Below are positions 5,248 to 46,900 of a stretch of 64,000 nt of DNA, in pieces. Position 1 is the first letter of the stretch. Each line of letters opens with the position of its first letter. The DNA is from Liolophura sinensis (lineage: Eukaryota > Mollusca > Polyplacophora > Chitonida > Chitonidae), in the NCBI RefSeq assembly GCF_032854445.1, contig NC_088306.1, positions 562,501 to 626,500 of the forward strand, in the 5' to 3' direction. The translations under genes and the position numbers were made by a program. Below the pieces are notes generated by a model that had not been told where the DNA came from, ran no database searches, and saw only the letters and a list, made by a program, of their open reading frames with translations.

Positions 5248-5640
5248 GTGGGCAGTGGTCAGGTGGTTAAAACGCTTGTCTTCCAATCGCTATGACCCAT
5301 GAGGTGGGGTTTAACCCTGGGTTCGGACAAGGAATTTGTGGTATCCTTATGCTCTCACAGTTGATGAAGAATTGGTGACAGTGAGTGGTAGACGAAACTC
5401 ACGAGGCCACGAGGCCACTTGTGCAGTCTAACTTTGTTTGAAGATCGCTCGTCTTCCACCAGTAAGGTGTGCGCATATCTACCTCATATGAGAAAAGATT
5501 TGTAGGTAACTCGCCAAAGGTTGGTGGTTTTCCTTGATTACTCCAGTTTTATCCATCCATAAAACTGACTTCAGAGTGTAGGGAGGGGGGTGGGGATTCT
5601 TGAGTATGATGTAAAAGAATGAAACACGTAAATAAATATT
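5248..5640 (+). mobile_element. tRNA-headed SINE of another family
   Basis: Starts gtgggcagtggtcaggtggt taaaacgc (A-box-like) and has gggttcggac (B-box-like) about 60 bp on. A long body with ggtaactcgccaaaggttgg tggttttcc follows, ending attcttgagtatgatgtaaa agaatgaaac. The end only partly resembles the other SINE tails. Confidence 0.65.
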
Positions 5641-5644
5641 CCCG

Positions 5645-7335
5645 TCTGCTGGTCGTTAAACCGAAATCTTATAATTGGCTGTTTTTTGGGAGTGAAGTAG
5701 ACTGCTAGCTGCTGTTGACCTCATTGTGTTTTAAGACGACGACTCTGAATTCCTCTCTATTCAAAAAGACTGATTAGTGGAAAGGTGTTAAGTCAGATAT
5801 GGTAAGTGTCGAAAGTAATGACGATGTCATAAGTTTAGGAGTCTCGGTGATTTTTGACACACCTTCGTCTGACGAAATTAAAGTGAGAGTGATAGAAAAA
5901 AAGTCGGAGAAAAATCGAAATATGACACCCTGACTTGTCTAGTTAAATTTGACAACACGTTTGCCTCTAAAGCCATTGTATTTGTACTTAACTAGCCACG
6001 AGTAGAATGGCACCAAAATGTGCAACCTTTAATAAAAAACAGCAATTAATACAGAAAAGAAAAATATCACGATAACAGTAATTCTTGCATAAAGATATTT
6101 AATGCATGTTTTCATCTTTCATGTGATAAACAAAATAAACAAACAAACACCACGACCCACACGCTCGCACGCAATCTGTGGGCACGCAATGATATTTAAG
6201 TTCGCAGGTCTGTAGTGAGCAAACGGGTAAATGTACCAAGTAATTAACCTACGACTTGTGTATTGTCAGTTTCAGAAGTAATTAATTATTGATGACCACG
6301 TGATTCCGCAGTTCATTAATGGCCGATCATGCAGGTATGAGAGCAATACACAAGAATGAATTATGCCCGGCCACGTAGTGATATCGGCAATCCTTATGGG
6401 CTACCGTTACAATGTGATGGGTAAACCATTTCACAAAATAGTGAACCTTTTATTAACAAGCGGCATTTCCAAATAACATGGAAAGCGCCTCCGTTGTGAG
6501 GAGCGTGAAAGTGTAGCCGAAAATTTTGGACGTTAATACCTACGCTGTGAGAAGAGTGGCCGACAGGGTAGTCGATGTAGACCCAGACCCCCGTTAAATT
6601 TCCATAAGCGGCAATGTTAACGTTTAATGCTGTAACTCAGTCCCAAACAACACGTGGCCAGTAAGTTTTGGTGCACACCTGACCCAGCCTGTGAGAAAGC
6701 ACCCACGAAAGTCTTGCCTATCAACGCCAATACGACATCTTACGCAGCCTCATTACCACCTATCTCCTTGTGTCCTCTCGCCCAGAGTTTCAAACCTGCC
6801 CAAAGTTCAGACAATTTCTACCATTTTGATACCGAGCATGAGCCCCTTCACCAAAAATGATAGGCTGGCAGTTAAAAAAGACTTCACACCATAAAATACA
6901 CAGAATTACATTCGTGTAATAGGGTACTGATTCTGCTTAAGCTACGCTGTGAGGAGAGAGGAAGTGTGGCGTGTGGCCGATAATGACAGGTACAGAAACA
7001 CGCGCTGTGAAGGGAACGACATTGTGGTCGAAAATGGCATTTCAGTTTTGTTCAAATCCAGGACAGAAAAAAACGAGAGAAGAAACAAGGGAAGACAAGT
7101 CACGTGTTTTATCTTTACTTATCCCTATGCTCACTCCCTCAGCCAGTTCCGATTTCCGACTTCCGCACCCTCACCATGTCACTGGATTACTAATTTGCAG
7201 TCATCGTTTTTCTCATTCAGTGTTAATAATTCCCAAAGCCACCTACTTATTCCACACTTAACCAACATCCCTGCACTGGTCCACCAGCTATTTCCCACGG
7301 CATGCCACGTAATGACCACTGTACTTATTTCCATA
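5645..7335. other. Intergenic, no gene recognised
   Basis: Short open frames near 6654-7338 overlap in several phases with no recognisable motif. tacgctgtgaggagagagga (6941) and gctgtgaagggaacgacatt (7005) hint at decayed dispersed repeats. Confidence 0.45.
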
Positions 7336-19945: not shown

Positions 19946-22900
19946 CTACACTCTTGTGACATTAACAATGTCCCTGATCATTACATATACATCAAACCCC
20001 ACAGCGAACCCGAAATACAAAGGCAGTAAATACTGGAGGTAGTAGACCCAGCCTGGCAACGGCAACGGGATCTGGAGATTCCTGCAACAGCAAAAAAAAC
20101 ACAATTTATTGTTTAATTATTTATTTATTTACTCAAGACCCTTTTCACTCATGCAATAGTGGTCCCTTTTATGGGTGAAGGAAACTGGAGATTCAGTATA
20201 CATAACACCCATGTCAATACCCAAATTCTTCAAACTTTGCAAACGCCTGTGCAACCACGATTTTGAAACATTCTGCGAGATCTATGAGGTGTAGAGAAAC
20301 AATTTGCACAGTTCTATGGAGCTTGCATATTTAATGTCAAAAAAATATCATTTTTAGCATGATTTTAATAACAATTGTATACCTAAATAATACAGAAAGA
20401 AGTGCTTCAGTAGTTGAAAAAGCTGAAGATTTACAGCATATTAACTATAACACTGGTTACGATGGTAGTCATGCACAAATGAAAAACGTTACAAATAATT
20501 AAAAAAACTGGTTCTAAAACCAGATGTCTTCAGGCTGCAGCATGGAAACAATGAACAATTGCTCTTTTGGGGGGGGGGGGATGAGGTTTTGTGCTAGTCA
20601 GCCAGTCCTCACCTTATACCTCAGCCAAAACCACGCTTAACTCACGAGAATAAGACATACATTTAAATAAGAGAGAGAACAAGCTTTAATAAAACTGATC
20701 TAATTTCACATCCTTTAAGGACATAATAGGGAACATTCAGTAATATTTATAATTCCTATTGATTGGATTTTGGAGACAAAGCTACACTGGTTGGGTTAGA
20801 GGATTTCAGGACAGAACAAAAAGTATAATTTTCATACCACACAGAATAACACAATCAGAATATGGTTGAATAAACATCTTGCAAACATGTGAAACGTCTG
20901 AAGTATTATAGTAGCTAGATTTGTACATGAGTCAAACCCGTTACAACGTATACGGAGGTAGCTTGTATCTTACCCAAAACAGTTCCTTTTCGTAGCTTTA
21001 TGCATCATGAGGAAGAGGAAAAAGCCACTCTGAATGTTGAGACTAAGGGAAGCAAACTTCTCTAAAATCTGAACAAAGCCCTGCGGATACAAAAACAAAT
21101 CAGTGATATCACATAACAAGCTGAAAAAAGTCAGCATCACATGGATTTGAACACATGGCTTCATTGGTCATTGGTTTTATTTATTTATTTGATTTGATTG
21201 GTGTTTTACGACATACTCAAGAATATTCCACTTACTCGACAGAGACCAGCATTATAGTGAGAGAAAACCCTGCAGAGCCCTGAGAGAAACCCACGACCAT
21301 TTGCAGGTTGCTACCAAATCCAAATTGGTATTAAAGTGTATGGCCAATGGCTTTATATCAGTACAACAAACGATTTATCTTTGTGTTTTTAAGATATATC
21401 CCACATGTAACTTTGCACAGATAAGCAGGTTTTATCGCAGACAATTCTAGCAGTTAACACACTGTTTCATCATGATTTAGTAGATACAGAAAAGTATTTT
21501 CCCTGGAGAATACAAAGTGTTTTCATGTACCAGTACTTTTACTTTCACTTTCAATATGTCCAGTAACTTACCTTAGGATTTGCCATAGCTATACAAAACA
21601 CAACACTGAAGGCTAGAAGTGAGAGAAAAGAGCCACATACACTGAAAAGAAAAAAAAAACAGCAATCCACTAAAGTGTTAATAAAATCACTTAAATATGT
21701 AAATCTATTTTCTCTGAAAGTATTGGTTGTCTATTTTTAAGTCAAGTTGTCAAATTTTTAAGATTTGCACATATGCTGTGTTCTAAAGTCTGTGATTTGC
21801 CCCAATTTAACTTGACTGCTTCTGGGCCATTTTGACACATGCCCTTATACTTTATACTTTAATCATCCCCATAACACACAGTGTTTACTGCTACTGTCCT
21901 GCTGGTCAAATATTAGCAGCAAAATCAAGACATTTGTGAGGAGAATTAAATCCAAACAAATTACTTAAAACTGAATGACATAGTGTGAAGTTACGCTGTA
22001 GACCAGAAAAAAAAAAATGTTTTTTTTTTTCCAAATCTCAAACTGATAAACAGTTGAAAGCTGACCACATACAAGTCCAGATTTCACTTTTCACGTGCCA
22101 GTTAGGAACGTTCCTAGTCATGATGTTTACCAAGTGACACACAATATTTCTTACCACCCATAATAGTTCACAATTTCAATACCAGAATATTTTCTCACAC
22201 AGTTTTCCTTCCTTTTCAGCTTTTTCAACCACTGCACAATAAACAATACCTAGTTTAAAATCCCATAATACCCACATATAAAGTCTTCAAAGTGTGCTGA
22301 AAAAAGTTGTCTATCATGGTCACTGTAACCGCCCACTTTGAACATTTCTATCATGGTCAATGTAGCCATCTACTTGGAACATTCCTAACATGGTCACTGT
22401 AACTGTCTACTTTGAACATTCCTATCATGGTCACCGTAACCGTCTACTTGGAACATTCCTATCATGGTCACTGTAACCGTCTACTTGGAACATTCCTATC
22501 ACGGTCACTGTAACCGTCTACTTGGAACATTCCTATCATGGTCACTGTAACCGTCTACTTGGAACATTCCTATCATGGTCACTGTAACCGTCTACTTGGA
22601 ACATTCCTATCATGGTCACTGTAACCGTCTACATTGAACATTCCTATCACGGTCACTGTAACCGTCTACATTGAACATTCCTATCATGGTCACTGTAACC
22701 GTCTACTTTGAACATTCCTATCATGGTCACTGTAACAGTCTACTTTGAACATTCCAATCATGGTCACTGTAACCGTCTACATTGAACATTCCTATCATGG
22801 TCACTGTAACCGTCTACATTGAACATTCCTATCATGGTCACCGTAACCGTCTACTTGGAACATTCCTATCATGGTCACTGTAACCGTCTACATTGAACAT

Positions 22901-25900
22901 TCCTATCATTTAATCCAAATGTCACAACTCATTTCAGTTCTGCTCTTTACATTTGATGTTTTGGCTGTCCTCTCCGGTTATTACTGAAAAACCAGATAAC
23001 CATGTAGAGCTTACCATTTTGTATTGCACCATTCGCAGAGTCTCTTACTGCGCGCCTGGAAACGTGCCTTGTAGACCGCAAACTTGTCCTGACTCCACAG
23101 AGAGTCCACCCAGCCAGAGACTGAAACATAGCAGGGGAGATAACTCAGAACTAGGACACTATACCACCTGACCAGAGAGGGAGAGAGCGAGAGAGAGAGA
23201 GAGTCTCTATTCACACTGTACACTTACTGGTGTGATGTAGGGCAGCTCCAATGGTCAGGTAGGACACTGTGGTGCTGATGACAATAAATACCTCCACTAA
23301 TACAGCTATCCACATGTATGAGGGGCAGGGGTCTCCACTAGGACACTGTATACCACTTGACCAGAGAGAGAGAGTCTCTATTCACACTGTACACTCACTG
23401 GTGTGATGTAGGGCAGCTCCAATGGTCAGGTAGGACACTGTGGTGCTGATGACAATAAATACCTCCACTAATACAGCTATCCACATGTATGAGGGGCAGG
23501 GGTCTCCACTAGGACACTGTATACCACTTGACCAGAGTGAGAGAGTCTCTATTCACACTGTACACTTACTAGTGTGATGTAGGGCAGCTCCAATGGTCAG
23601 GTAGGACACTGTGGTGCTGATGACAATAAATACCTCCACTAACACAGCTATCCACATGTATGAGAGGCAGGGGTCTCCACTAGGACACTGTATACCACCT
23701 GACCAGAGAGAGAGTGTCTCTATTCACACTGTACACTTACTGGTGTGATGTAGGGCAGCTCCAATGGTCAGGTAGGACACTGTGGTGCTGATGACAATAA
23801 ATACCTCCACTAATACAGCTATCCACATGTATGAGGGGCAGGGGTCTCCACTAGGACACTGTATACCACTTGACCAGAGAGAGAGAGAGTCTCTATTCAC
23901 ACTGTACACTCACTGGTGTGATGTAGGGCAGCTCCAATGGTCAGGTAGGACACTGTGGTGCTGATGACAATAAATACCTCCACTAACACAGCTATCCACA
24001 TGTATGACGGGTAGTGATCATGGATAATCTACAAGACAACAGAAAAACAAAATTATTTACTTGTGCAACTAACACTTCACAAAGGAAGGAAACCATTATG
24101 ATTCATTTTTGAAAAATGATTTAACTGTCATTAAAGGCCTATTATGTGGTCTTTTGTTTCTGATTAACAAAAAATTAAATAGAATCTGGTCAGTCATGTA
24201 CCACATGTACAGTCTAGCCGGATGGTCTGTCTATCATACACTCACTCTATGCCGAACTTGGCCACACCCTGATCAAACACGCAACCATCCTCCACTTACC
24301 ACCCGTCGGTTCGGCCCACGGGCCACTGTCATGGTGGTGCCATGGTCCGTGTATCATACGCCCATTGTACGCCAACCTTGGCCAGACCCTGATCAAACAC
24401 ACCATCCTCTTCCGCTTACCGCCTGCGCAGGGTAAGCCCACGGTCTGACGACAGTCCGTCTATGGCGGTGCCATGGTCCGTGTATCATACGCCCATTGTA
24501 CGACAACCTTGGTCAGACCCTGATCAAACACACCATCCTCTTCCGCTTACCGCCTGCGCAGGGTAAGCCCACGGTCTGACGACAGTCCGTCTATGGCAGT
24601 GCCATGGTCCGTGTATCATACGCCCATTGTACGACAACCTTGGTCAGATCCTGATCAAACACACCATCCTCCTCCGCTTACCGCCTGCGCCCATGTATCA
24701 TACGATCAGACACACCATGATCCTCCGCTTACCGCCTGCGCAGGGTAAGCCCACGGTCTGACGACAGTCCGTGCATAATGGCACCATGGTCAGTGTATCA
24801 TACGCCCATTGTATGCCAACCTTGGTCAGACCCTGATCAAACACACCATCCTCTTCCGCTTACCGCCTGCGCAGGGTAAGCCCACGGTCTGACGACGGTC
24901 CGTCTATGGCAGTGCCATGGTCCGTGTATCATACGCCCACTGTACGCCAACCTTGGTCAGATCCTGATCAAACACACCATCCTCCTCCGCCTACCGCCTG
25001 CGCCCATGTATCATACGCCCATTGTATGCCAACCTTGGTCAGACCCTGATCAGACACACCATGATCCTCCGCTTACCGCCTGTGTAGGGTAAGCCCACGG
25101 TCTGACGACAGTCCGTCTATGGCAGTGCCATGGTCCGTGTATCATACGCCCATTGTACGCCAACCTTGGTCAGACCCTGATCAGACACACCATGATCCTC
25201 CGCTTACCGCCTGTCTAGGGTAAGCCCACGGTCTGACGACAGTCCGTCTATGGCAGTGCCATGGTCCGTGTATCATACGCCCATTGTACGCCAACCTTGG
25301 TCAGACCCTGATCAGACACACCATGATCCTCCGCTTACCGCCTGCGTAGGTCTAGCCCACGGTCTGACGACAGTCCATGCATGATGGCACCATGGTCAGT
25401 GTATCATACGCCCATTGTATGCCAACCTTGGTCAGACCCTGATCAAACACACCATGATCCCCCGCTTACCGCCTGCGTAGGTCTAGCCCACGGTTTGACG
25501 ACAGTCCGTGCATGATGGCACCATGGTCAGTGTATCATACACCCATTGTATGCCAACCTTGGTCAGACCCTGATCAAACACACCATGATCCCCCCGCTTA
25601 CTGTCTGCATAGGTCTAGCCCACGGTCTGACGACAGTCCGTGCATGATGGCACCATGGTCAGTGTATCATACGCCCATTGTACGCCAACCTTGGTCAGAC
25701 CCTGATCCAACACACCATGATCCCCCGCTTACCGTCTGTCTAGGGTAAGCCCACGGTCTGACGACAGTTCGTGCATGATGGCGCCATGGCCAGTGTTTCA
25801 TCATACGACAGTTCGATGTAACAACATCAGACGTACACTGTAGGCCTTGTATCGAGTCTCGAGCCTTACAGGCCAGGCTCGTACCATAAAGTTATGATGT

Positions 25901-28900
25901 ATCTTGCTCTATAAATTTTTGAAACTTTATCACCTATTTTGAATGTAACATTTGATGAGGCTGATATTTGATGGGCTATTCTAAAGTAACAGTCAAAACT
26001 GGATTGGAATTGGGCTTATCTTCATAATTAACATATTAATGAGTTGAGGGATATTCTCAAAATATCCAACATATTTTACACCTTGTAAGATTTAGGATAT
26101 ACACTTACACTGGCCTAGGGCCAACATCCCATTTACTCACGCGTAGGCGTATATAAACGCTACATATGATTGCGCTTGTCGTGTGCAAACTAAATAAGCA
26201 GATGTTTGAGCTCATAAAATTTAATAAACGACAGGCCCTACAATTCTGAAATTGGGAATATCATAAATAGACTTGATGTTAAAAGGAAAGACATGCTGAC
26301 CTTTATATGCGCCAGTGGTTTGAATTTTATAAACTGTAGGCCATGTGGGATGTACAGATATAATTCAGGACAGATACAGTTTCAATACAGACTTTTGAAA
26401 GCGCCTTTTGTTGTATATAAGCACACACATTACACACACCAATGCCAAATATTCCTGCGTAATTTTGTAGTCAACATGAAACTGTCATAAATTTATCAAA
26501 TGATAAGCCAAAGACCTTGAGTCTGTTTCCAAATTCTGAAATTCTATACCGCCACAGCTGTATACAGCAGTGCAGCGTGGGTTTCAGTGATGCAATGTGC
26601 TGCACATACATATCTGCCGGTACCTAACTCTGCCATATATGCCTCTAATGAGGCTTGCTGTTTAAGAATTAGTGAAGTAATTTATGTCATATACAAAATA
26701 TTGCATACTCAAGATGCAAACTTGAAGCCTCTGTCCTCAAGAGAACAGTACGTATGGGTGGCAGACCAAAACAGTTGGGGTCCCAAACAGTAAGCCCTTA
26801 AAACTCGAATATTGTGCACAATTTGTGTGGTACCCATATGAAGGTACCTGGTCGGCATATTGTACGCTGACCGTGGGCCGCCCATCAACATATCCTTCAG
26901 CCACACTGGGTGTAGGATTGAGGCTAGGATCTGGCTGTAGTGTCAGGGTCGGCATACTGTATGCTGACCGTGGGCCAACCGTCAGTGTATCCTCCAGCCA
27001 CATTGGGTGTAGGATTGAGGCTAGGATCCGGCTGTACTGTACAGGGTTGGCATACTGTATGCTGACCGTGGGCCAACCGTCAGTGTGTCCTCCAGCCACT
27101 TTGGATGTAGGATTGATGGCTAGGATCCGGCTGTACTGTGCAGGGTCGGCATACTGTATGCTGACCGTGGGCCAACCGTCAGTGTATCCTCCAGCCACAT
27201 TGGGTGTAGGATTGAGGCTAGGATCCGGCTGTACTGTACAGGGTCGGCATACTGTATGCTGACCGTGGGCCAACCGTCAGTGTATCCTCCAGCCACATTG
27301 GGTGTAGGATTGAGGCTAGGATCCGGCTGTACTGTACAGGGTCGGCATACTGTATGCTGACCGTGGGCCAACCATCAGTGTATGCTCCAGCCACATTGGG
27401 TGTAGGATTTAGGCTAGGTTCCGGCTGTACTGTACAGGGTCGGCATACTGTATGCTGACCGTGGGCCAACCGTCAGTGTATCCTCCAGCCACATTGGGTG
27501 TAGGATTGAGGCTAGGATCCGGCTGTACTGTACAGGGTAGGCATACTGTACGCTGACCGTGGGCCAACTGTCTGTGTGTCCTCCAGCCACATTGGGTGTA
27601 GGATTGAGGCTAGGATCCGGCTGTACTGTACAGGGTCGGCATACTGTATGCTGACCGTGGGCCAACCGTCAGTGTATCCTCCAGCCACATTGGGTGTAGG
27701 ATTGAGGCTAGGATCCGGCTGTACTGTACAGGGTCGGCATACTGTACGCTGACCGTGGGCCAACTGTCTGTGTGTCCTCCAGCCACATTGGGTGTAGGAT
27801 TGAGGCTAGGATCCGGCTGTACTGTACAGGGTCGGCATACTGTATGCTGACCGTGGGCCAACCGTCAGTGTATCCTCCAGCCACATTGGGTGTAGGATTG
27901 AGGCTACGATCCGGCTGTACTGAACAGGGTCGGCATACTGTACGCTGACCGTGGGCCAAACGTCTGTGTATCCTCCAGCCACTTTGGGCGTAGGATTGAG
28001 GCTAGGATCCGGCTGTACTGTACAGGGTCGGCAGATTGTATGTTGACTGTCGGCCGACCGTCAGTGTATCCTTTGGCCGCAGTGGGTGTAGGATTCATGG
28101 CTTGGATCCGGCTGTAATCACAGTACATGGTCGGCAGATTGTACGCTGACCGTGGGCCAACCGTCTGTGTATCCTCCAGCCACATTGAGTGTAGGATTGA
28201 GGCTAAGATCCGGCTATACTGTACAGGTTTGGCATATTGTATGCTGACCGTGGGCCGACCGTCAGTGTATCCTTCGGCCGCAGTGGGTGTAGGATTCATG
28301 GCTTGGATCCGGCTGTAATCACAGTACATGGTCGGCAGATTGTACACTGACCGTGGGCCAACCGTCTGTGTATCCTCTGGCCACATTGGGTGTAGGATTG
28401 AGGCTAGGATCTGGCTGTACTGTACAGGGTCGGCATACTGTATGCTGACCGTGGGTCAACCGTCAGTGTATCCTCCAGCCACATTGGGTGTAGGATTGAG
28501 GCTAGGATCTGGCTGTACTGTACAGGGTCGGCATACTGTATGCTGACCGTGGGCCAACCGTCAGTGTATCCTCCAGCCACATTGGGTGTAGGATTGAGGC
28601 TAGGATCCGGCTGTACTGAACAGGGTCGGCATACTGTACGCTGACCGTGGGCCAACCGTCTGTGTATCCTCCAGCCACTTTGGGTGTAGGATTGAGGCTA
28701 GGATCTGGCTGTACTGTACAGGGTCGGCAGATTGTATGTTGACTGTGGGCCGACCGTCAGTGTATCCTTCGGCAGCAGTGGGTGTAGGATTTAGGCTAGG
28801 TTCCGGCTGTACTGTACAGGTTTGGCATATTGTATGCTGACCGTGGGCCGACCGTCAGTGTATCCTTCGGCCGCAGTGGGTGTAGGATTCATGGCTTGGA

Positions 28901-31900
28901 TCCGGCTGTAATCACAGTACATGGTCGGCAGATTGTACACTGACCGTGGGCCAACTGTCTGTGTATCCTCTGGCCACATTGGGTGTAGGATTGAGGCTAG
29001 GATCCGGCTGTACTGTACAGGGTCGGCATACTGTATGCTGACCGTGGGCCAACCGTCAGTGTATCCTCCAGCCACATTGGGTGTAGGATTGAGGCTAGGA
29101 TCCGGCCGTACTGTACAGGGTCGGCATACTGTATGCTGACTGTGGGCCAACCGTCAGTGTATCCTCCAGCCACACTGGGTGTAGGATTGAGGCTAGGATC
29201 CGGCTGTACTGTACAGGGTCGGCATACTGTATGCTGACCGTAGGCCAACCGTCAGTGTATCCTCCAGCCACATTGGGTGTAGGATTGAGGCTAGGATCCG
29301 GCTGTACTGAACAGGGTCGGCATACTGTACGCTGACCGTGGGCCAACCGTCTGTGTATCCTCCAGCCACTTTGGGTGTAGGATTGAGGCTAGGATCCGGC
29401 TGTATGTACAGGGTCGGCAGATTGTATGTTGACTGTGGGCCGACCGTCAGTGTATCCTTCGGCCGCAGTGGGTGTAGGATTTATGCTAGGTTCCGGCTGT
29501 ACTGTACAGGTTTGGCATATTGTATGCTGACCGTGGGCCGACCGTCAGCGTATCCTTCGGCCGCAGTGGGTGTAGGATTCATGGCTTGGATCCGGCTGTA
29601 ATCACAGTACATGGTCGGCAGATTGTACACTGACCGTGGGCCAACCGTCAGTGTATCCTCCAGCCACATTGGGTGTAGGATTGAGGCTAGGATCCGGCTG
29701 TACTGAACAGGGTCGGCATACTGTATGCTGACCGTGGGCCAACCGTCTGTGTATCCTTCGGCCGCAGTGGGTGTAGGATTCATGGCTTGGATCCGGCTGT
29801 AATCACAGTACATGGTCGGCAGATTGTACACTGACCGTGGGCCAACCATCTGTGTATCCTCTGGCCACATTGGGTGTAGGATTGAGGCTAGGATCTGGCT
29901 GTACTGTACAGGGTCGGCATACTGTATGCTGACCGTGGGCCAACCGTCAGTGTATCCTCCAGCCACATTGGGTGTAGGATTGAGGCTAAGATCCGGCTGT
30001 ACTGTACAGGTTTGGCATATTGTATGCTGACCGTGGGCCGACCGTCAGTGTATCCTTCGGCCGCAGTGGGTGTAGGATTCATGGCTTGGATCCGGCTGTA
30101 ATCACAGTACATGGTAGGCAGATTGTACGCTGACCGTGGGCCAACCGTCTGTGTATCCTCCAGCCACATTGGGTGTAGGATTGAGGCTAGGATCTGGGTG
30201 TACTGTACAGGGTCGGCATACTGTATGCTGACCGTGGGCCGACCGTCAGTGTATCCCCCAGCCACATTGGGTGTAGGATTGATGGCTAGGATCCGGCTGT
30301 ACTCACAGTACATGGTTGGCGTATTGTATGCTGACCGTGGGCCGACCGTCAGCCCATCCTTCGGCCACAGTGGGTGTAGGATTGTCGGCTAGGATCCGAC
30401 TGTAATCACAGTACATGGTCGGCAGATTGTATGTTGACCGTGGGCCGACCGTCAGTGTATCCTTCGGCCACAGTGGGTGTAGGATTCATGGCTTGGATCC
30501 GGCTGTAATCACAGTACATGGTCGGTATATTGTATGCTGACCGAGGGCCGACCATCAGCACATCCTCCGGCCACAGCGAATGTAGGACTGATGGTTAGGA
30601 TCCAGCTGTACTGCATGTATACCTGTCTCAATCTAAACCTATCTGACTGTTGTGTATTTGCACTCACTAACTCACCATTGTTAAAGGCACTGTAGAAATT
30701 TCACCATTTTCATTCGAGCTGGAAAAGGAAACAGACTGAATCATTAAGAGAATAAATTCCTCTACATATTGTCATGGCCGTTACGTTTTCCAGTCATACA
30801 TTTATTCAAAAAAATAAATCACTATGCACAGAAACATACCAAAAATTGGCCAAAACACTAAAACTTTAAGTCAAAACACATGCATTCGTAATATCAATTC
30901 AAAATCACACATTAAATGTTCATAACTGTAGTTAATTTGACATCTTATTTACTTATTTATTTGATTGGTGTTTTATGCTCTAAGAATATTTCACTTATAC
31001 GAGGAAACCGGGAAACCCACAACCATCCACAGGTTGCTGACAGACCTTCCCATGGAGAGGAAGCCCGCATGAGCTGGACCTGAACTCACAGCGAACGCAT
31101 TTTTTAGGAGGCTCCTGAGTCATTGTACCATGCTGGCATGCTAACCCCCTCAACCGTGGAGGCCCCTTGAAATTTTAAATGTTGTAACTACACACGTGTA
31201 ATTAAATAACAAGTTTGCATTAGAACAAAATGATCCAAATTTTTGATGGAGGAATATGATACAAGATAACATAGAAACATTCTGTATACAAACATAAACA
31301 GAACACAACTCACTGTTGTAGAGATATATTTGAGTGACAGCTGATAGCATTTTGCGCATAGATTTCTTTGATGGCGGATGTGTTGAGAGAGTGACCAGTG
31401 TCCACTCCTGCTGGACACTCACTTGTCTGAGGAACGATGTCCAGCACTGCCCAGCACCTATAGGAAGGCAGGTGAGAAACATGTCAACCTTGAGACAACC
31501 TACACCATGAAGAGGAAACAATGATGCATCCAGAAATTTTCTCAAAATTCTTGTATCTTTTTTTCTTTGTTTTTGATATCAATAACCAAATGATATAAGA
31601 AAAAAGTTAGCACGATCTAAAGCAAATCCAGTTTGAGAGCGCAAAACCATCCAAATGTTATGTTCAAATGCAGAACAATTTGACTTTCTTACATAAGTTT
31701 TGGGCCTTTCAAGTTTTTGGACGAGTCCTTCTGACAAACACAACAAGGCCCTGTATTGAACAGTGTCACAATGCAAATACTTATAATTTAACAATGTTAA
31801 GTCTATACGTTACAAATATCTTACAAATGTGATTAGACAAAAGCAAAAGTGAGAAGACTATTTGTGTGTGTGTGTGTGTAACCCAAACAAGACATTATAC

Positions 31901-34900
31901 ACGCTGAATCTAGAGAAACACATTTAACGTTTATTTTTTGCTTTAAATTATAAAAATCACTACTCAAGATAATCAAATGTTTCACTCACCATAAAATATT
32001 CAAACCTGTACAGGTTATAATGCCCAATAGCACAGATCTTCTGTAGTTTATCACCTGAGAACAACAACAACAACAACATCTGGGTTAAGTTTTCTTTTTT
32101 TAGGATTTATTCTGCGTCTTCCTGTCATACTTATACGATTACCATTGGCAATGTTTAGAATTCCTTTTTTCCGCGAGTCATTCTGATGCCTGCCTGTGAA
32201 GCCCACAGTATGCTAAGTACCAAGCCTGGAGGGACCTGAGTCCCGAGTCCCATGCCACAAATAAGTCAAAGGCAATAATTGTAACTACAGTAAGTCTTCA
32301 ACCTTTTAGCATGTTTGCAAGGTGTTTATCCATGCAAATTCTGAAGATAATGTTTTGATTTATTTGATTTATTTATTTGATTGGTGATTTATGCTGTACT
32401 CAAGAATATTTCACTCATATGACGGCAGCCAGCATTATGGTGCGAGGAAACCGGGCAGAGCCTTGGGAAACCCACGGCCATCCGCAGGTTGCTGCTGACC
32501 TTCCCACATACGGATAGTATTTTATGTAGACTGACAAATTACATATTTTGTGATTCCATGAAACTGGCCAACCAATGTGGTTTGGTCTACAGAATCAAAT
32601 TATAAACGTGCATAAATTACACTGAAAGTTGCTCTTTGATGGTGGAAAGGGTTAAGGAATTAGGGTTTAGGGTACTTCAATAACATGTAATACAGAGTAT
32701 TCTAACAATATACAGACTTCAAATACAATTGCTATGGTTTCCTCCCACCAAATAATGTTCTCAGCCATCGCTTAAGTGAAGAAACACAATTCAGATAAAT
32801 AAATACACCTGTTAGGTGGAAGCATGTCCTGGTGCAACATACACCCCTTGCTACAATACTGTTTTATTTAAACCATGGTAACAACGTGTCAAAGATGGAA
32901 AACAGAACTTCAAATACAATGGTAAACTGTAGCAGGAAGCAATAACCTGGAATGTGATTCAATGTTCTGTCTCACCTGGTTAGGAACTGGTTGTATTTTC
33001 TCATACAGCATCGGCATTGTCTGGAATATACCACCTGTGTATGGAAAAGAACCATTCATATATGTTAGTAACACTGTCCTCCTTTGTTTGTTTGGGTGTT
33101 TGGGTGTTAACGTTAACATAGTGTTAGCCACAAATTGTTAAACTAGGAGTGCAAAGGAAATTTTAGGGAGTGCATCGCCTTCGACCGAGTGTTCAGGCTG
33201 GGGTCCAGAGGTCACCTAGGTCCCTGTAAGCTCTTGCTTTCTAGATTTTCTCTGATGCATTTGGGGTAAATTTAGTGATCAAAAATACACAAGACATCAA
33301 CTTTTTGAGGAAAGAATGAAGAGTTACCACACCTTATTAATAATTAGTTATTTATTTATTTGATTGGTGTTTTACGCTGTGCTCAAGAATATTTCACTTA
33401 TATACGACGGCGGCCAGCATTATGGTGGAAGGAAACCGGACAGAGCCCGGGGGAAGCACACAACCGTCCACAGGTTGCTGGCAGAGCGCTCACCACGGCT
33501 GACATCACCATGCCAGCTGGCCCAGTTGGAGTATAGGCCTACCCTGGCCTATAAAGAGAGCCTTTCCTGACAGCTTGTACAAGGCAACTCATGATGTCAT
33601 TTTGCAGTATACGCGCTTGTTTTAAAAAAAGAAACAGATAAAAATATTCATACCGGAACATCAATCTAGTGAAAATATATCTTTGCAATTTCCCTTCCCA
33701 AAACATTTACCATGCCGTTTTCTGGGTTGTGTTCTACAAACTATGCTATCCAATATTTAAAGTCGATAGTTGTGTGGCATTATTTACAGGGAAGCATTCA
33801 ACACCCCATCGCATTAGGCTTTATATTCGCAGGATTGCGTTGAATCTACCGATCGCTTGTCTTCCTCCCCACTCGCATATGGGGTCCATACAAGAATGGA
33901 ACATGGATGATTGCCGTTGGATCACTGAAATAATAATGTTCAGTTGAACACAGCTAATCACCACATATGTTACAAATGAGATGTACCCACCATTTACAAG
34001 CCAAAATTCTGGAAACATCTGTTTTTCTGCAATTTTTGTACTTTATATAGGTCTACCAATGTGTGCAGAGTTTTAAACAACTTTGGCAGTATTGAAAAAC
34101 AGCCGTCCAATCACACAAAAACTTAAATCTTTTCAAAACGCCTCTTGCCAAGTGGGTGAGGCTCACTGAGGTGTGACAATGGCACCATGGTATACATTTT
34201 CTAAAAATGCACCTGAAATTATTGAAAATGTATGGTAAGAATAAAAATTTGATGAAAATTGATATTTTTGTTTCGTTTCATGGTCTTGCCAAATGTAAAC
34301 TATCACCTTTGACATATTTACACATTTATATCAGCGCATGATACATGTATATATAAAATTAAATGACAGAAACAGTGACAGTATTCAGAGAAAATTAATC
34401 CAGTAAGCCACACAGAAAGATTAACTGGGGTAGACTCAAACTCCCAGTATCAAGAGGCCAGCAGGGCTTGTTGACAGGGAAATCAACAGGCCCTTCCTCG
34501 AAATAGAAAAAGCAGCACACGAATAAGATTTAACATTGTAGGTTGTTCTGATATGCCCCCATTACAGTGTGTTACTATCTTTTTTCAAAGAATTACATGT
34601 ACATGTGCCTGGTTACCAATGACATGAAAATAGTCAAGAAGAAGTTCATGTAGCAGAGAATTGTAGCCAGGAAGTCAGCTGTGAACTTTTAATGTTGTGT
34701 AAGATGTTTGGAGGTTCCTCGCACAGACCCATCTATAAATACCGGTAGTTAAATATAAGCCATCCTTAGACCAAAGCTTTCAGGTAGAGCAGACTGAAGT
34801 CAGCTGTAGCTTATCAAGATGCTGGCACTCGTAATGGATTTGCTACATCGCTGTGACCTTTAGTTCCAAAACTCCAGTGCAGATGGAATCAAATTTACAA

Positions 34901-37900
34901 GCAACCTTTTATTTTTAAAGTCATCTTCTTATGTAACTCCTGCCAGCTCGGCAAAGTTGTTACTATCAACGGGCCAGCCTATGAACGGTTATTTCGACCA
35001 GTCAAACTACATCTGATTGGAAAACAGCCGTTTTACTATCCAACAGATTAAATTCCAATCAACCAAAGACCGTACATTATGACCGTACATTATGAGTCAA
35101 GTCCCCCGTGAAGCTGGCTCCTTGCACTGTTATTGTTGCTGACAACATTGAAGTCAGTCTTCAGTGAATTCCATGCTTGGTTACTTACTCTAAATTAAAC
35201 ACTCTACATGCCAACACAGTGAAGTAAAAGCTACAGGGCTTGTTACAGGAACAGCTGAGCTATGCATGAAATATTTAACCGTGTTTTCTCAGATCTGACC
35301 ATGCAAATCACGGCTCCACTGTTCGCTAGCTAAATGCATGAACATAAAGCAATGAGATTTCATCTGATTTGTCACCACCACAGAAAATTACAGCAATTAG
35401 TTCGCAAAAACATCTATTACAATATAAATTCCTTAAAATTATATATGATTAATTGTAAATAAATACATGAAATGTTGCTTAAATTGTGCCAATAAGTGAG
35501 TAAGAAAATTGGGGGAATCTCATGAATTTTGTTCCTGCATCTGTTTGATCATTTCCGCACAAAGATAACTCACCCAATGCCACAGTGCCCATCAGAAAAG
35601 GGTCTCCAACAGCGGAGAAATCATTGCTAATGGAATTGTGGATTTTGGTGCCTAACAAAAATGTCACAACCACCTGGAGAATGAAGAGAAAGTACACACA
35701 TACATGTACAGCTGATCAACATTTCCGAACAGAAATAAAATCTCAAACAAGTCTAATAATCTAACAACTAACAACCAGTCTCCTACAGCCAGAGAGACTT
35801 GTTAAAATTACCTTTTGGTGATAACTCTCTGGAATTGGAGTCAAAAATACATGTACTGACAAAGGAATAGATGTACTCAATACAAACTTTAGTAAATACA
35901 AGTACATGTAGTAGATATGGGAAAATCTGCAACGTCACCGAAACTGACCAAAAAGTTCCGAAACATCATCACCACTGTAATTTATGTAGCAAGTAAAATT
36001 ACAACCGCACATTCAAAACCTGTGAAGTTATACATGTAGCTGGACAACGGAGACAGACAGACAAAATCACAATGACCAGACAGAAGTTGGGCATATGTAA
36101 ATATAAATATGGCAATGATATTCTCTAAATTTTAGCTTTTGGTTGGCTGATGACAAAATTTTTGTGAAGAACATTATGTAATGTATACCCGCACATATAA
36201 AACAACTCTTTTCACTGTAACCAAATGGCTTTAGGGCAAATAAGAAAAGCTTGGAGTATCATGGGCTCCAAACACACTGAATATTGCCCACAATTCTCCC
36301 AATAGAATTCAAGTATTTGAGTGTGCATTAAATTCAGCTGGAGAAAGTGAAAAGATCTCAGATACAGTTATCAGTGGTCTGTCTGATGATTATTTTATGT
36401 TGTTCTTTGCTTTAATAAAACAGCAGGAAAAAACATAATTCTGGGGATGGGGGACTAAGGGGAGATAAATCATGACTCACTGTTCCCAGGAGTACTGTCC
36501 CTTTGAGGAAGGTGAGCACTGACACCACCGGCTGGATCAGTTTCAGGGCAAACACAATAGAGACAGTCAGTACACCGACAAACACAGGAATCACGTAAAA
36601 GTGACTGAAAATAAACACAACATACCCAACAGTTGGCTTAACTCAGAACCTGTCAGCAATAACCCATGAGTTATTGTCTACCAGAAGTCATACTCACTTT
36701 GTGTGTAAAATGTACATAAAATGAATCTGTTTAGGAGACCTTGTGTTAGTAAAACTAACAGACCTTGTCAAACAACACAGATTGTCTTATAACAAATTGT
36801 GACAATTTTCTTGTCAATGTACATATGAAAAAAATATATGATAGTTTTGTAAAACTGTGTAACGAAGAAAGCTTCTAGTGGGCTAAGGAAGAATTTGACA
36901 AAAAATACAGAGAATTTTCAACAAAGAACTTTTTCTTTCATTTCCAGACGACAGTATTTAGTTTATCTAAGAAAAAAACAAAAAATGCAATCTAAGTGAA
37001 TACAATCTGCAAGTATTCAATGTTTTATATGAACGCCTGAGATCTGTTAAATAACATTTAACCTTGTCAAACACACTAGACCTTCTTAACAAAAGTTAAG
37101 AACAGTTTAATAAAAACAGCAATAGAAATTATCTCAAACTGAAATTTTAAAGCAAATTAAATACTCTAAAGAACAGTTCTAAAACACATCCAAAAACTCA
37201 GGTAAAACAGCTACCAAAGAGCTTGCCTGTAAATGTAGGAGAAACTTGAATGCAAAACAGAGACATTCTGCTTTTGGTATATGTATGATGTAAACCCTGA
37301 GCTCAATATATGCAATACTTCTTGAGATACCACGTCTAACATCTACCTATACCTTGATTTCAATAAACAAGATGCTAAGTTGTGAATTTTGTGATTTACG
37401 ATAATTATTATACACGCGTGGGACGTGGGCAAAAAACATCCCCCTCCTGTTCCTGTGCATTACATCATGACATGTATGCAAAACCTGGGACATAGGCAAA
37501 AAACATCCCCCTCATGTTCCTGTGCATTACATCATGTCATGTATGCAAAACCTGGGACATGGGCAAAACACATCCCCCTCATGTTCCTGTGCATTACATC
37601 ATGTCATTTATGCAAAACCTGGGACATGGGCTAAAAACATCCCCCTCAAGTTCCTGTGCATTACATCATGCCATGTATGCAAAACCTGGGACATGGGCAA
37701 AAAACATCCCCCTCCTGTTCCTGTGCATTACATCATGCCATGTATGCAAAACCTGGGACATGGGCAAAAAACATCCCCCTCCTGTTACTGTGCATTACAT
37801 CATGTCATGTATGCAAAACCTGGGACATGGGCAAAAAACATCCCCCTTCTGTTACTGTGCATTACATCATGTCATGTATGCAAAACCTGGGACATGGGCA

Positions 37901-40900
37901 AAAAACATCCCCCTCCTGTTCCTGTGCATTACATCATGCCATGTATGCAAAACCTGGGACATGGACAAAAAACATCCCCCTCCTGTTACTGTGCATTACA
38001 TCATGTCATGTATGCAAAACCTGGGACATGGGCAAAAAACATCCCCCTCATGTTCCTGTGCATTACATCATGTCATTTATGCAAAACCTGGGACATGGGC
38101 TAAAAACATCCCCCTCAAGTTCCTGTGCATTACATCATGCCATGTATGCAAAACCTGGGACATGGGCAAAAAACATCCCCCTCCTGTTCCTGTGCATTAC
38201 ATCATGCCATGTATGCAAAACCTGGGACATGGGCAAAAAACATCCCCCTCCTGTTACTGTGCATTACATCATGTCATGTATGCAAAACCTGGGACATGGG
38301 CAAAAAACATCCCCCTTCTGTTACTGTGCATTACATCATGTCATGTATGCAAAACCTGGGACATGGGCAAAAAACATCCCCCTCCTGTTCCTGTGCATTA
38401 CATCATGCCATGTATGCAAAACCTGGGACATGGACAAAAAACATCCCCCTCCTGTTACTGTGCATTACATCATGTCATGTATGCAAAACCTGGGACATGG
38501 GCAAAAAACATCCCCCTCATGTTCCTGTGCATTACATCATGCCATGTATGCAAAACCTGGGACATGGGCAAAAAACATTCCCCTCGTGTTACTGTGCATT
38601 ACATCATGTCATGTATGCAAAACCTGGGACATGGGCAAAAAACATCCCCGTCCTGTTACTGTGCATTACATCATGTCATGTATGCAAAACCTGGGACATG
38701 GACAAAAAACATCCCCTCCTGTTACTGTGCATTACATTATGTCATGTATGCAAAACCTGGGACATGAACAAAAATCATGTCATGTATGCAAAACCTGAGA
38801 CATGAACAAAGACCATCCCCCTCGTGTTACTGTGCATTACATCATGTCATGTATGCAAACCCTGGGACATGGACAAAAAACATCCCCTCCTGTTACTGTG
38901 CATTACATCATGTCATGTATGCAAAACCTGGGACATGGGCAAAAAACATCCCCGTCCTGTTACTGTGCATTACATCATGTCATGTATGCAAAACCTGGGA
39001 CATGGACAAAAATCAGATACCTCGTTTTCCTGTGCATTACATCATGTCATGTATGCAAAACCTGGGACATGGACAAAAAACATCCCTCTCATGTTACTGT
39101 GCATTACATCATGTCATGTATGCAAAAGCTGGGACATGGACAAAAAACATCCCCGTCCTGTTACTGTGCACTACATCATGTCATGTATGCAAAACCTGGG
39201 ACATGAACAAAAAACATCCCCGTTCTGTTACTGTGCACTACATCATGTCATGTATGCAAAACCTGGGACATGGACAAAAATCATCCACCTCGTTTTCCTG
39301 TGCATTACATCATGTCATGTATGCAAAACCTGGGACATGGACAAAAAACATCCCTCTCATGTTACTGTGCATTACATCATGTCATGTATGCAAAACCTGG
39401 GACATGGACAAAAAACATCCCCGTCCTGTTACTGTGCACTACATCATGTCATGTATGCAAAACCTGGGACATGAACAAAAAACATCCCCGTTCTGTTACT
39501 GTCCATTACATTATGTCATGTATGCAAAACCTGGGACATGGACAAAAAATATCCCCCTCGTGTTACTGTGCATTACATCATGTCATGTATGCAAAACCTG
39601 GGACATGAACAAAAAACATCCCCGTTCTGTTACTGTGCACTACATCATGTCATGTATGCAAAACCTGGGACATGGACAAAAAACATCCCCTCCTGTTACT
39701 GTCCATTACATTATGTCATGTATGCAAAACCTGGGACATGAACAAAAATCATCCCCCTTGTGTTACTGTGCATTACATCATGTCATGTATGCAAAACCTG
39801 GGACATGGACAAAAATCATCCACCTCGTATTACTGTGCATAACATCATGTCATGTATGCAAAACCTGGGACATGGACAAAAAACATCCACCTCGTGTTAC
39901 TGTGCATTACATCATGTCATGTATGCAAAACCTGGGACATGGGCAAAAATCACCCCCCTCGTGTTACTGTGCATTACATCATGTCATGTATGCAAAACCT
40001 GGGACATGGACATAAAACATTCCCCTCGTGTTACTGTGCATTACATAATGTCATGTATGCAAAACCTGGGACATGGACATAAAACATCCGTCCTGTTACT
40101 GAGCATTACATAATGTCATGTGTGCAAAACCTGAGCTCAATATATGCAGTACTTTCAGATAGCACCCCTATTATTTACCTCAACATTGGTTTCACTGTTA
40201 CTGGACAATGACGCCTACACTGCGGTTTGACAATAGTTACACTAGTACATTCAGTTACAATACATATGTCATTCTAACTAAGATGTAGAAAAAGAGTTCT
40301 AGGGAAAAAAAAAACAAATTTGTAACATTAAATAATTTAGTAATTCTCTATGTAACAGCCATTTTTCATTTTAATCTGGTCAAAATCATTTTGAAATAAT
40401 CTTGATTTAAAAATTCTGAGTAATCTGTTTTATCAGGTGATACATAGTTTTAGGTCTCTGATAAATTTATCCACTCAGGATAAGCCTACAAAACGCATAA
40501 CTAGAGCTTATTTCTACAGATTAAAGTCTAGCAAATTTCATGGCACTGGATGAATATTCGATATAATTAATATCTACTGCTTAACAAAAAGGTGTAAAAT
40601 TGCTACAATAGGGCAAACAAGAACAAACTAACAGAAGTGAATAAAGACGAAAATGTCTACAAAAACTGAGAAGAACTCAACAAGTCAGAATGTAAGGGTT
40701 TACACACAATGAGAGAAGTGAACAGGCATACCCCACCTCCAAGAACTACTTTTCTCCGAAAATTCTCCTGGAAAAGACCGATCCTCATTGACAAAAGATA
40801 AAAACTGAGATCCATATACACACATGTGTACACAGCAATTATCTGAATTGCTCATACTGATATACTGATCATGTGTATCGTTTTTTAAGTTTGAGTTTTT

Positions 40901-43900
40901 GTGCTTTATTTTATTTCAACCAAAGATTTTCTAAAAGGATTAGAGTTAAATAAGTAATTAATTTCATGACAGGTCAATTTACGAAGTCTCTACACAATGC
41001 AATGCCCAGGTAGGTGATCGCTATAGTTACCTGATTCCAATAATCTCAGCATAAGCTTCACTTCCAGCCAAAGCATAGCTGATGAGAATTGCAATACTGA
41101 AAAAAACAAAACAAAACAGAATTCTTTCAAAACAGAACACCAAAGTTATTATTTTTATTAATGAAAGTAATTTTTCCTCTGTTCAAGTTCTGTTGCACAA
41201 GTGGGAAAATTTTATATTACATGAAACTAAACCTCCATGTATAATAAGGAAACCAGTTGACATTTCTTTAAGCACCTTTAACCTTCACGGAATCACATGT
41301 TCAATCATGCCTTCTTCCTGGTTTTGAGTAGGTATGTGATTATCACTGAAGTATCAACAGTCTGATGAATGAAAGGCCATCTTCCAAAATCCAATAGAAC
41401 AAACCCTGATAGTCTGAGCAAAACACAGGTATTGACCGCTCAGATTTGAGCAGTTTATTTCAAGCCAAACACAAGCCACACACTGCAAACATGTACATAC
41501 GTATACCAAGTAAAAGAAAACTGTTACCATGCCATTCCCAGCATAACTTTCAGTGTCAGATCAAAAACCTTTCCAGTCCACCATTAAGGGAGCTAAACTA
41601 ACACAAGCTAAGTCAATAATTAAGCAGTAGAGTTGTTAATTTGTGTGACAAGTACAGACTTACAACAACAACAGAATGGAGACATCAAAAAACTGTCGTA
41701 TCCCACAGAGGAGGAAGTATTCTCCCAGCATGTGCAGGTTGGGCGGTTTGATGGCATCCTCTGCTGGAAGAATCACATGTCCTGCCAAATCAGGTACGGA
41801 GTCTGAGAAACAAGAGGAAAAAAAACACTCAATGATATCTTCACAACATACCTATAGGTGTGCTAAACAGTTCATCCTGGCCACACTCCTGTATCAACAC
41901 AGGACAAATGGTAAAGTGTAGAGAGGCATGTGTTTAATCAGGTACGGAGTCTGAGAAACAAGAGGAAAAAACACTCAATGATATCTTCACAACATACCTA
42001 TAGGTATACTAAACAGATAATGTTTTCACACGCATCATGATGTGACATATACATGCAGCTGTGCAGTGCATGTCAACTGCTTTCACTGCAGGTCACATGC
42101 ACGATTCATACAATACTTTCCAAGATTTGTCTCTGAACTGAAGAGTGCGGGGCACTGATTTGATCATATTGCCACACATCATAGTTTGTTAATACACTAT
42201 AAATTTCTCCTCTGCAGTCTTGCACAAGGATAAAATATATCAGAATTTTCTCTGTTTTGGATAGAACTATGTCTGTTTTTGGATAGAAATTTTTGGCCCT
42301 GTGATGTTACCCGTCTCCAAGGACATGACAGAGGTCAGAAAATGCCATTTATATGTAGACAAAAGCGCAAGTTGGATGTGGCAGTATGACATTACACTGC
42401 ACGGATGTTAGGGGATAATTATATATTCGCGATTGAAGACAACATTTACTGCATAAATAGTAAGGAAAATCAATGTATTATGTTGGTAATACACACAATT
42501 ATATAGCCAACTGACTAGGCAATATTCACACAAAAACACAAAATGAATCAAAGACCAGAACCACAAAGAACTGCATGTATTTTCAGGCTTTACAAAAACA
42601 AGGGTCAAAGGTCATATTAACATATATATGTATCACAAGGAAGGACAAAAAACACCCCTCTTCTAGACAAACACCAAACACTTTTTAAAGAATGTACCCA
42701 CCTTGGATTTCTTTTTCATTAATTTCCTCTTCCTCTAAGGATTCTTCTTCATCTATTATTGAGTAGAGAGGCAAGTGTTCACCCCGGCCACACTCCTGTA
42801 TCAACATAGGGCAAATCGTAAAGAGTAGGGAGGCAAGTTTTCATCCCGACCACACTCCTCTACCAACATAGGACAAACAGTAAAAAGTAGGGAGGCAAGT
42901 GCTCATCCCGACCACACTCCTCTACCAACATAGGGCAAATGGTAAAGAGTAGGGAGGCAAGTGTTCACCCCAGCCACACTCCTGTATCAACATAGGACAA
43001 ACGATAAAGTGTAGGGAGTCAAGTGTTTACCCCGGCCACACTCCTGTATCAACATAGGACAAATGGTAAAGAATAAGGAGTCAAGTGTTTACCCTGGCCA
43101 CACTCCTGTATCAACATAGGCCAAATGGTAAAGAGTAGGGAGTCAAGTGTTTACCCCAGCCACACTCCTGTATCAACATAGGACAAATGGTAAAGAGTAG
43201 GGAGTCAAGTGTTCACCCCGGCCACACTCCTGTATCAACATAGGACAAATGGTAAAGTGTAGGGAGTCAATTGTTTACCCCGGCCACACTCCTGTATCAA
43301 CATAGGACAAATGGTAAAGAGTAGGGAGTCAAGTGTTCACCCCGGCCACACTCCTCTACCAACATAGGACAAATGGTAAAGTGTAGGGAGTCAAGTGTTT
43401 ACCCCGGCCACACTCCTGTACCAACATAGGACAAATGGTAAAGTGTAGGGAGGCAAGTGCTCACCCCAGCCACACTCCTGTACCAACATAGGACAAATGG
43501 CAAAGAGTAGGGAGTCAAGTGTTTACCCCGACCACACTCCTGTATCAACATAGGACAAATGGTAAAGAGTAGGGAGTCAAGTGCTCACCCCGGCCACACT
43601 CCTGTATCAACATAGGACAAATGGTAAAGTGTAGGGAGTCAAGTGTTTACCCCGGGCCACACTCCTGTATCAACATAGGACAAATGGTAAAGTGTAGGGA
43701 GGCAAGTGTTCATCCCGGCCACACTCCTGTATCAACATAGGACAAATGGTAAAAAGTAGGGAGGCAAGTGCTCATCCCGACCACACTCCTGTATCAACAT
43801 AGGACAAATGGTAAAGTGTAGGGAGTCAAGTGTTTACCCCGGGCCACACTCCTGTATCAACATAGGACAAATGGTAAAGTGTAGGGAGGCAAGTGTTCAT

Positions 43901-46900
43901 CCCGGCCACACTCCTGTACCAACATAGGACAAATGGTAAAGTGTAGGGAGGCAAGTGTTCACCCCGGCCACACTCCTGTATCAACATAAGACAAATGGTA
44001 AAGAGTAGGGAGTCAAGTGTTCATCCCGGCCACACTCCTGTATCAACATAAGACAAATGGTAAAGTGTAGGGAGTCAAGTGTTCATCCCGGCCACACTCC
44101 TGTATCAACATAGGACAAATGGTAAAGAGTAGGGAGTCAAGTGTTCACCCCAGCCACACTCCTCTATCAACATAGGACAAATGGTAAAGAGTAGGAAGGC
44201 AAGTGTTCACCCCAGCTACATTCCTGTACCAATATAGGACAAATGGTAAAGTGTAGAGAGGCACGTGTTCACCCTGGCCACACTCCTGTACCAACATAGG
44301 ACAAATGGTAAAGAGTAGGGAGTCAAGTGTTCACCCCAGCCACACTCCTCTATCAACATAGGACAAATGGTAAAGAGTAGGAAGGCAAGTGTTCACCCCA
44401 GCTACATTCCTGTACCAATATAGGACAAATATAATACAGCAAAGTGTTTAACACCCTCCACCCCTGAAATCTCTCCCCATTCCCTCCCATACAAGGCAAA
44501 GGAGACAAAAAATTCAATATGGCTGCTGATCTGCCAGTAGAATTCTTGGGTTGAAATGATGCCAGAAGTATTTAGCTGTGTGAGCCATTAAATGAAAGAC
44601 ATCATGTGGATGTGCTATAGTGTTATCAAACGAGGGAATGTGTAAATATGACAATTTGTCCAAAAAAAGACCAAACAGCTACACTCTAACTTCAACCTAC
44701 CGTAACAGCCTCCAGTTGTACAGCATAGGCTCTCTGTAACAAGTCAGTCATGAAGTAGACCACTAACCCCTGTAAAGGAGAGAGGATTTGGGGAGGATTT
44801 AATAGCAACAAGGTTTGTCACGTTATCATTGACTGAATTGCATATGTAACTGTAACCGACTTTCCCACATACATGACATACATGTAGTTATGAAATACAT
44901 GTAAGCTTTGTAACAATGGTCCTACAACTAGCTACCAAGACACAGCTTGTGAAACCCACACATTTAGTAGCAGATATGTCCATTCAGAGTACAGGAACTG
45001 TTTATATTGAACTCACTCGAACAGGTGGAGACCATCTGAATATTATCAACTCCTATGATTATAATACGACAAATGGAGAACATTTGGGTCCATGAGCAAG
45101 TGTCAGTAATACACTGCCGGGAAAACGAAATACTGATTAAAACTGTACCACAAATAAATACCTGCATAAAAAACCCAACACCAAACGAGACCAGAAATGG
45201 GTATAGCCCTGCATATGTCAATGTGACTGGTAAACCTGAAATGAAAACAAGAAATGAAACAATTACCAAGTCACAAATGTATTATCTGTTTGTTGTTAAA
45301 TGCTAACACTGTAGAGCTTTTCACTAACATGGCAGTCAGTCTTATTGCTGGAGGAAGCTGGAGTGCCCGGGTAAACCAATGACCTTTGGCGAGTTGAAGA
45401 TCACACAAGAATACTTTTTGCTGCTAAGTCCTACAGAGCTATCAAAGCATGGTATTGTAGAAAATTCTGTTCTAAAGTAGGATGGAACCGACATCTCACA
45501 TGACCTTAACGAAGCAGTCAGGTTTAAGGGTTATAAAACCAGACGCCAAAGGAGTCTGGTGGGCCTAATTTTGGAGGGTTAGTCAGGCTGTCTACAACAA
45601 ACATGTTTTTAATAATGGCCTTAGCATCACACATCCAAGTTCAGTCTCACCTAATATGCCAGTTCCCAGGATAGTTGCTATGGTGACAAAGTCTGAAATG
45701 AAAAGAAATAATGCATGAGTCACATATCAAAACCACACATTATAATAAAATTGTATGCTGTACTTTACCAAGAATTACCCATTTGAACTTTAATAATTAC
45801 GGAAACAGCTATTAGAGTATCACTTACTAATAAACTTTCCATCAAGGTGTTATCCAATTTCGATAAGGTTTATACCCATGAGGGGTTAAAATCTTTTTTT
45901 TTTTCACCACCTGCATGATTTTCCCCATAGGGAACCGCTGAAAATAATCCCCCTGGTGTCTATCATAACCAAAGCCACTTGCCACTGAAGTATCATGTCA
46001 AAGACACTAGATATGACACGCCACCTTGTCACGTTATACTGACACTGGGACAACCGGTGTGGTTTCATTGCTCTAACCTTTCAGAGCTGCGTGTTAAGCC
46101 TTAGGTATCACCTGACCCATGTTTGATCCCAAATCTCCAGACATCGAGCCAGACAATCTAACCATAAGGCCACCGAAACCATCACAGCCAAGCATTTGCA
46201 CATGCGTGTTGTAATCCATGCTAGTTAGTCCGTCTTTATCTTTGATAAGTCGGCCAACACATAGATGTGACCAAACACATGCAGAATACTTGTTTGTGAT
46301 TAGTTTCCCTTGAGTAACCTGCATCATGCAATGTGCGAACACGTCAGCGAGACAAGGAAAAGCAGGAATGGAATCCTCAACCTCGATGACAGTTACAACA
46401 CATGCTGAGTGCACACAGCCATGTACAAAAATTTATATAACTTCAAACATGTAAAAACATGTCAAACAATTTGAGCGGAAGAGTGAAACGACACAAATCT
46501 GTCCTAGAATATTTCCCTCTGTCTCTGCGCAAAAGTCTGGTACCTGACCTAAAATGAGCTCTTCGGCGGTAGCTGTGAAAAAAAGAGTCGGGATCAAAAA
46601 AAAAAGAGCGTTACAATTTTCAGAAAAATGAGAAAATTTGAAAATAAAGACTTGTCAGTGGGATTAATTTCTCCGAGTGGTAAGTGCTGTGACACAGGCA
46701 CTGCTTTTTATTTGAAGAAATCACATGGAAAATATGCTCCACAACTGCGATACATCAGAAAGCGTTTCACACTGTCACTTTTGATCCTGGCTGCGCCACT
46801 TGATTCAAAGTTACGTATTTGCAACTACTTCCATCCATCACTTTGAGAGCACCCAGTCTCATCTGGATCTGCGTGAACCTGCAACTCCTGCAGTGCTGAT

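Follow-up and report, generated by a model that had tools for sequence, protein, structure and literature searches.

Does a row of exon-like segments represent a set of alternative exons, or a repeat that splicing passes over? This question is raised by a 171-bp tandem array in a 64,000-nt stretch of the chiton Liolophura sinensis (GCF_032854445.1, contig NC_088306.1, positions 562,501 to 626,500 of the forward strand; hereafter the window), where it lies in a minus-strand gene for a multi-pass membrane protein. The assembly was first published under the name Liolophura japonica (PMC11068029); a subsequent correction assigned it to L. sinensis (PMC12441733). The original prediction for this locus proposed a cluster of mutually exclusive exons for helix 8 of the protein, and named as its alternative a neutral array which splicing has to pass over. 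Our results favour this alternative, which fits best with the truncation of the copies, their weak acceptors, the unchanged helix and the recurrence of such arrays. Judged from the sequence, it is very probable that the array is a mirage, i.e. a minisatellite whose unit spans an exon-intron boundary, and that it is most likely ignored by splicing. Mirages are described gene by gene in amphioxus, in the Adh3, troponin C, globin and PGBD5 genes (PMC3087553; PMC3902484).

The five tandem units with a period of 171 to 173 bp are real, and the positions originally given for them are correct (Table 1). In transcript order, the start-to-start spacing is 173, 171, 171 and 171 bp. The unit spans the boundary of the genuine exon: its 3' part (about 98 nt) and the donor are included, followed by about 70 bp of intron. 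Splice signals are carried along, with the donor in all five units and weak AGs in the four copies. The genuine exon, counted as exon 15 in the original prediction, is the 14th of 18 exons in our reading, and the next exon, formerly exon 16, is the 15th. Within the shared exon part, 92 to 94 of 94 nt are identical between units, with very few variable sites, and the same peptide is encoded by the genuine exon and all four copies.

The 5' end of the genuine exon is not part of the repeat. Homology between the copies and the genuine exon begins at TCATACATG, 21 nt into the exon, and the genuine acceptor (ttgtttttctgttgtcttgtag) is absent from all four copies together with the first 21 exon nucleotides. 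The description of each segment as an open copy of exon 15 hence applies to the open frame and the own donor, but not to the 5' end, which is truncated and preceded by old intron. In the single-copy intron remnant in front of the next exon, ggtcaggtggtatagtgtcctag is followed at some distance by cccctgc; the copies contain in parallel ggtca(a/g)gtggtatacagtgtcctag plus cccctgc. Since the 5' part of the copies is old intron, duplication did not include the genuine acceptor. The ACAG proposed in its place is a by-product of this intron, the matching spot of the remnant reading TATAG.

All splice sites were scored with a generic matrix. The 17 real acceptors of the host gene score 3.5 to 11.5, and the only strong acceptor of the 171-bp array is that of the genuine exon. 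The ACAG sites of the copies reach -1.4 to -1.8, corresponding to the 64th to 68th percentile of the 1411 intronic AGs of the host gene. Each of the four copies holds a further AG between the CT tract and the ACAG, with scores of -1.3 to 2.6. With the genuine acceptor uncopied and its substitute scoring like an ordinary intronic AG, the predicted cluster of mutually exclusive exons is not supported.

The same prediction placed the variable leader of the exon by the glycosylated loop before helix 8, in agreement with two N-glycosylation motifs at residues 325 and 343 in the stretch ahead of this helix. The leader is the only part that differs, with seven residues in the genuine exon and eight in the copies, the latter being translated old intron. 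It was predicted as CPSGDPCP for all extra copies and indeed reads so in copies 2, 4 and 5; the copy at 23687 has CPSGDPCL. Exons used in a mutually exclusive manner would encode different versions of a segment, and here helix 8 is invariant. A switch between the five units would hence offer no new version of the helix.

With respect to the reading frame, the original prediction proved largely accurate. Read from the ACAG, the copies run from phase 0 to phase 1 without in-frame stops, and any one of them does fit between exons 14 and 16 of the earlier numbering: substituted for the genuine exon, it gives an open frame of 540 residues with one terminal stop. A second AG in each copy (first base 23850, 23679, 23508 or 23337) also yields an open frame when joined to exon 13 of that numbering, exon 14 being skipped, as had been suggested. 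Two exons together break the frame as stated, but four together would restore it, each being 1 mod 3 by arithmetic.

Some observations weigh against the array being a mirage without effect on splicing. Each copy retains an intact donor, with scores of 2.8 to 3.4 compared with 2.8 for the genuine donor, and an in-phase open AG is found in each copy. A presumed alternative myosin exon of the same genome has an acceptor of only -2.4 by the same matrix, and therefore the low score of the ACAG alone is not decisive. Furthermore, the distance of 53 to 55 nt from the donor of a copy to the next ACAG is unique among the long exon-fragment arrays found, the three myosin arrays leaving 9 to 32 nt. As to the phase, the four acceptors are copies of one site and thus represent one coincidence rather than four; an AG in a wanted phase is expected by chance in one of three cases (arithmetic).

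These points are also what a working or newly born cluster of mutually exclusive exons would draw on, in which one of five exons is chosen and the leader before helix 8 changes. The neighbours are homologous, of the same phase, stop-free and similar in length (115 and 118 nt), they have their own donors, and the 53 to 55 nt between donor and ACAG would hinder the joining of neighbouring copies. However, this short spacing would be no bar to the frame-breaking joining of copy 1 to copy 3, the acceptor offered is weak and intron-derived in place of the uncopied genuine one, and the helix is identical in all units. In addition, substitution events between tandem exons in human are mostly ancient (PMC9741552), and mutually exclusive use is not found for many neighbouring exons of high similarity (PMC5740500). 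We therefore regard such a cluster as improbable. Similarly little chance is given to an exon cluster at birth, i.e. a mirage with a weak in-frame acceptor from which minority transcripts would carry the eight-residue leader with its two cysteines. If true, this would be a case of minisatellite growth turning into exon choice.

Arrays that span splice junctions recur in the host gene and elsewhere in the genome, which further argues against a special exon cluster for helix 8. In the host gene, 2 of 34 junctions lie inside tandem arrays, and either exon boundary can be affected: the donor side in the 171-bp array and the acceptor side in a second array at exon 5. In the latter, 16 units share one anchor and the last of them runs on into exon 5. 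The 15 decoy acceptors among these units have scores between 4.2 and 6.9, compared with 5.1 for the genuine exon 5 acceptor, and thus local strength cannot explain the choice of the site. When the six arrays of the host gene were placed at random, at least one covered an exon in 51% of the trials and at least two in 14%; the exon borders used for this were preliminary, and some of them shifted by as much as 10 nt afterwards. Just upstream of exon 6 (about 41790-41960, minus strand), its acceptor and first exon bases occur once more as a stray copy, with a fragment of the exon 5 repeat unit between this copy and exon 6. Related interspersed repeats containing accaatcaaataaataaa are located at about 30930-31130, 32343-32530 and 33350-33560; we take them to resemble a repeat common in molluscs.

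Outside the host gene, 11 of 245 sampled junctions were found inside tandem arrays, namely 8 of 148 in myosin genes and 3 of 97 in an independent set of ABC and kinesin exons. Junctions were set by the best matrix score near a profile match, and spots without a site above 0 were dropped. The myosin sample (182 junctions in total minus the 34 of the host gene) retained 148 of 156 possible junctions from 78 of 81 rows; three rows lay beyond the extracted stretches, and one was clipped at a stretch end. The second sample retained 97 of 116 possible junctions from 58 rows. These comprise 18 of 19 ABC rows, one with many stops being excluded, and 40 of the first 49 kinesin rows (from 132), nine with at least two stops being excluded.

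Three of the myosin arrays, L045, L048 and L052, contain long exon fragments together with the donor, and their copies leave 9 to 32 nt between the exon parts, which would be too short for separate exons. More arrays across a splice site (acceptor or donor) of exons from myosin or kinesin genes are located at L004 1646-3006, L007 6777-7332 and 9318-9842, and L001 7542-7733, and likewise in L038, L080, L090 and L105. L001 also holds a presumed mutually exclusive pair of myosin exons (5217-5300 and 6304-6387) about 1.1 kb apart and identical at 64 of 84 nt, presumed alternative only on the ground that two exons of a single gene align to one and the same stretch of the myosin profile.

In the first set of junctions, the coverage by arrays is about 5% at the junction itself and increases smoothly to 18% at 300 to 400 nt into the intron, and in the ABC and kinesin set from 3% at the junction to 13% in the intron. 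A preferential start of arrays at splice junctions was considered and gained no support from coverage by distance or from the spread of array edges. Overall, arrays with a period of at least 10 cover 36% of the window and 18% of a further 118 kb, of which 73 kb were picked for myosin exons. In contrast, the published repeat table of this assembly lists 0.08% for simple repeats, microsatellites and RNA together, beside 14.04% of unclassified repeats (PMC11068029).

Table 1. Features of the 171-bp array, its host gene and related arrays (positions in the window).
Feature	Position	Strand	Description
Tandem array	23192..24011	minus	Period 171, 4.8 copies, 97% matches
Genuine exon (14th; formerly 15)	23914..24028	minus	115 nt, phase 0 to 1; acceptor 6.8, donor 2.8
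Copy 2, from ACAG	23741..23858	minus	118 nt, leader CPSGDPCP
Copy 3, from ACAG	23570..23687	minus	118 nt, leader CPSGDPCL
Copy 4, from ACAG	23399..23516	minus	118 nt, leader CPSGDPCP
Copy 5, from ACAG	23228..23345	minus	118 nt, leader CPSGDPCP
Intron remnant before next exon	23121..23227	minus	107 nt; unrepeated sequence from which the intron portion of the unit derives
Next exon (15th; formerly 16)	23015..23120	minus	In joined frame
Host gene	19946..47262	minus	18 coding exons read by hand; joined frame open, phases consistent
Second junction-spanning array	42761..44430	minus	62-bp unit, 26.9 copies; contains exon 5 acceptor and first ~35 coding nt
Exon 5	42702..42795	minus	Follows last unit of the 62-bp array
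Myosin array L048			72 exon nt plus donor; period 104, 2.0 copies
Myosin array L045			115 exon nt plus donor; period 124, 4.3 copies
Myosin array L052			113 exon nt plus donor; period 140, 3.7 copies

The exons of the host gene were read by hand because an automatic scan with strict thresholds gave just three candidate rows. The product comprises 539 residues with 11 hydrophobic peaks and looks like a multi-pass transporter, to which no family is assigned. Searches of Pfam and PDB with parts of the protein and with hand-joined stretches, one of which contained small joining errors, gave nothing above cut-off. The best Pfam match, DUF2456, had an E-value of 0.03 and remained under its own cut-off, and the best PDB matches were two chains with an E-value of 1.6. 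The C-terminal 356 residues gave 14 matches in the genome, all inside the host gene.

A different role would be that of decoys which tune the gene, with spare donors and poor exons leading to unproductive, frame-broken transcripts. The intact donors would suit this role, as would the broken frame when two exons are joined and the fact that read-through from the genuine exon runs into a stop after six residues of intron. On the other side, nothing points to selection for this role and similar arrays are common throughout the sampled genome, and hence we consider it unlikely. An assembly artefact, with the repeat expanded or two haplotypes mixed, is the least credible explanation: the sequenced individual is heterozygous (1.24%; PMC11068029) and an amphioxus globin mirage differed between two haplotypes, with 6 and 3 units (PMC3087553), but HiFi reads with a mean length of 8,347 bp (PMC11068029) can span the 820-bp array and make such an error unlikely, the units differ by distinct substitutions, and the 901-bp region 23200-24100 matches the genome (632 contigs, one assembly) once, at itself.

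As a mirage, the array would have originated from one tandem duplication that joined the intron (...CCCCTGC) to the exon at ...TCATACATG. Slippage or unequal exchange could then have expanded the unit to five, by which the downstream intron would have been lengthened from about 107 to 793 nt. Splicing would use the real acceptor at 24028 and the first donor at 23914 and continue with the next exon at 23120. Copies 2 to 5 would be removed with the intron because their donors are present but a good acceptor is missing.

In the mollusc genome studied here, the sampled junctions inside arrays amount to about one in twenty. Extrapolated to the whole genome, this rate would mean that real splice sites lie beside near-identical decoys in thousands of cases. 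Such arrays offer natural tests of how the spliceosome chooses when many sites are equal; if sites were paired across the exon, the one closest to its partner would be taken. They may also be a source of new introns or exons, and they call for caution in searches for alternative exons that are based on homology, phase and length. Among the titles and abstract openings returned for the terms searched in one open-access collection, no report of mirages in a mollusc was found, and the excerpted text of PMC12005716 mentions neither minisatellites nor tandem repeats.

Three known systems can be compared with the array. Intron gain by tandem duplication of segments with AG and GT, which has been proposed as an outcome of mirages (PMC3087553), has in common with it that duplication creates new potential splice sites. 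The chiton duplicate, however, sits within an existing intron, and nothing indicates that a new intron is in use. The mutually exclusive tandem exons of myosin heavy chain, Dscam and others resemble it in that homologous neighbours agree in phase, are similar in length and break the frame when two are joined; unlike these, the copies of the array are without a copy of the acceptor, encode an identical helix and are nearly identical in their DNA. The same anatomy is found in the mirages of amphioxus, where unit sizes of up to 150-160 bp occur, in the globin gene, and reverse transcription PCR suggested that regular splicing is undisturbed (PMC3087553; PMC3902484). In comparison with these, the chiton array belongs to an unrelated gene and includes about 98 exon nucleotides per unit, and it most likely represents a further case of a mirage, here in a mollusc.
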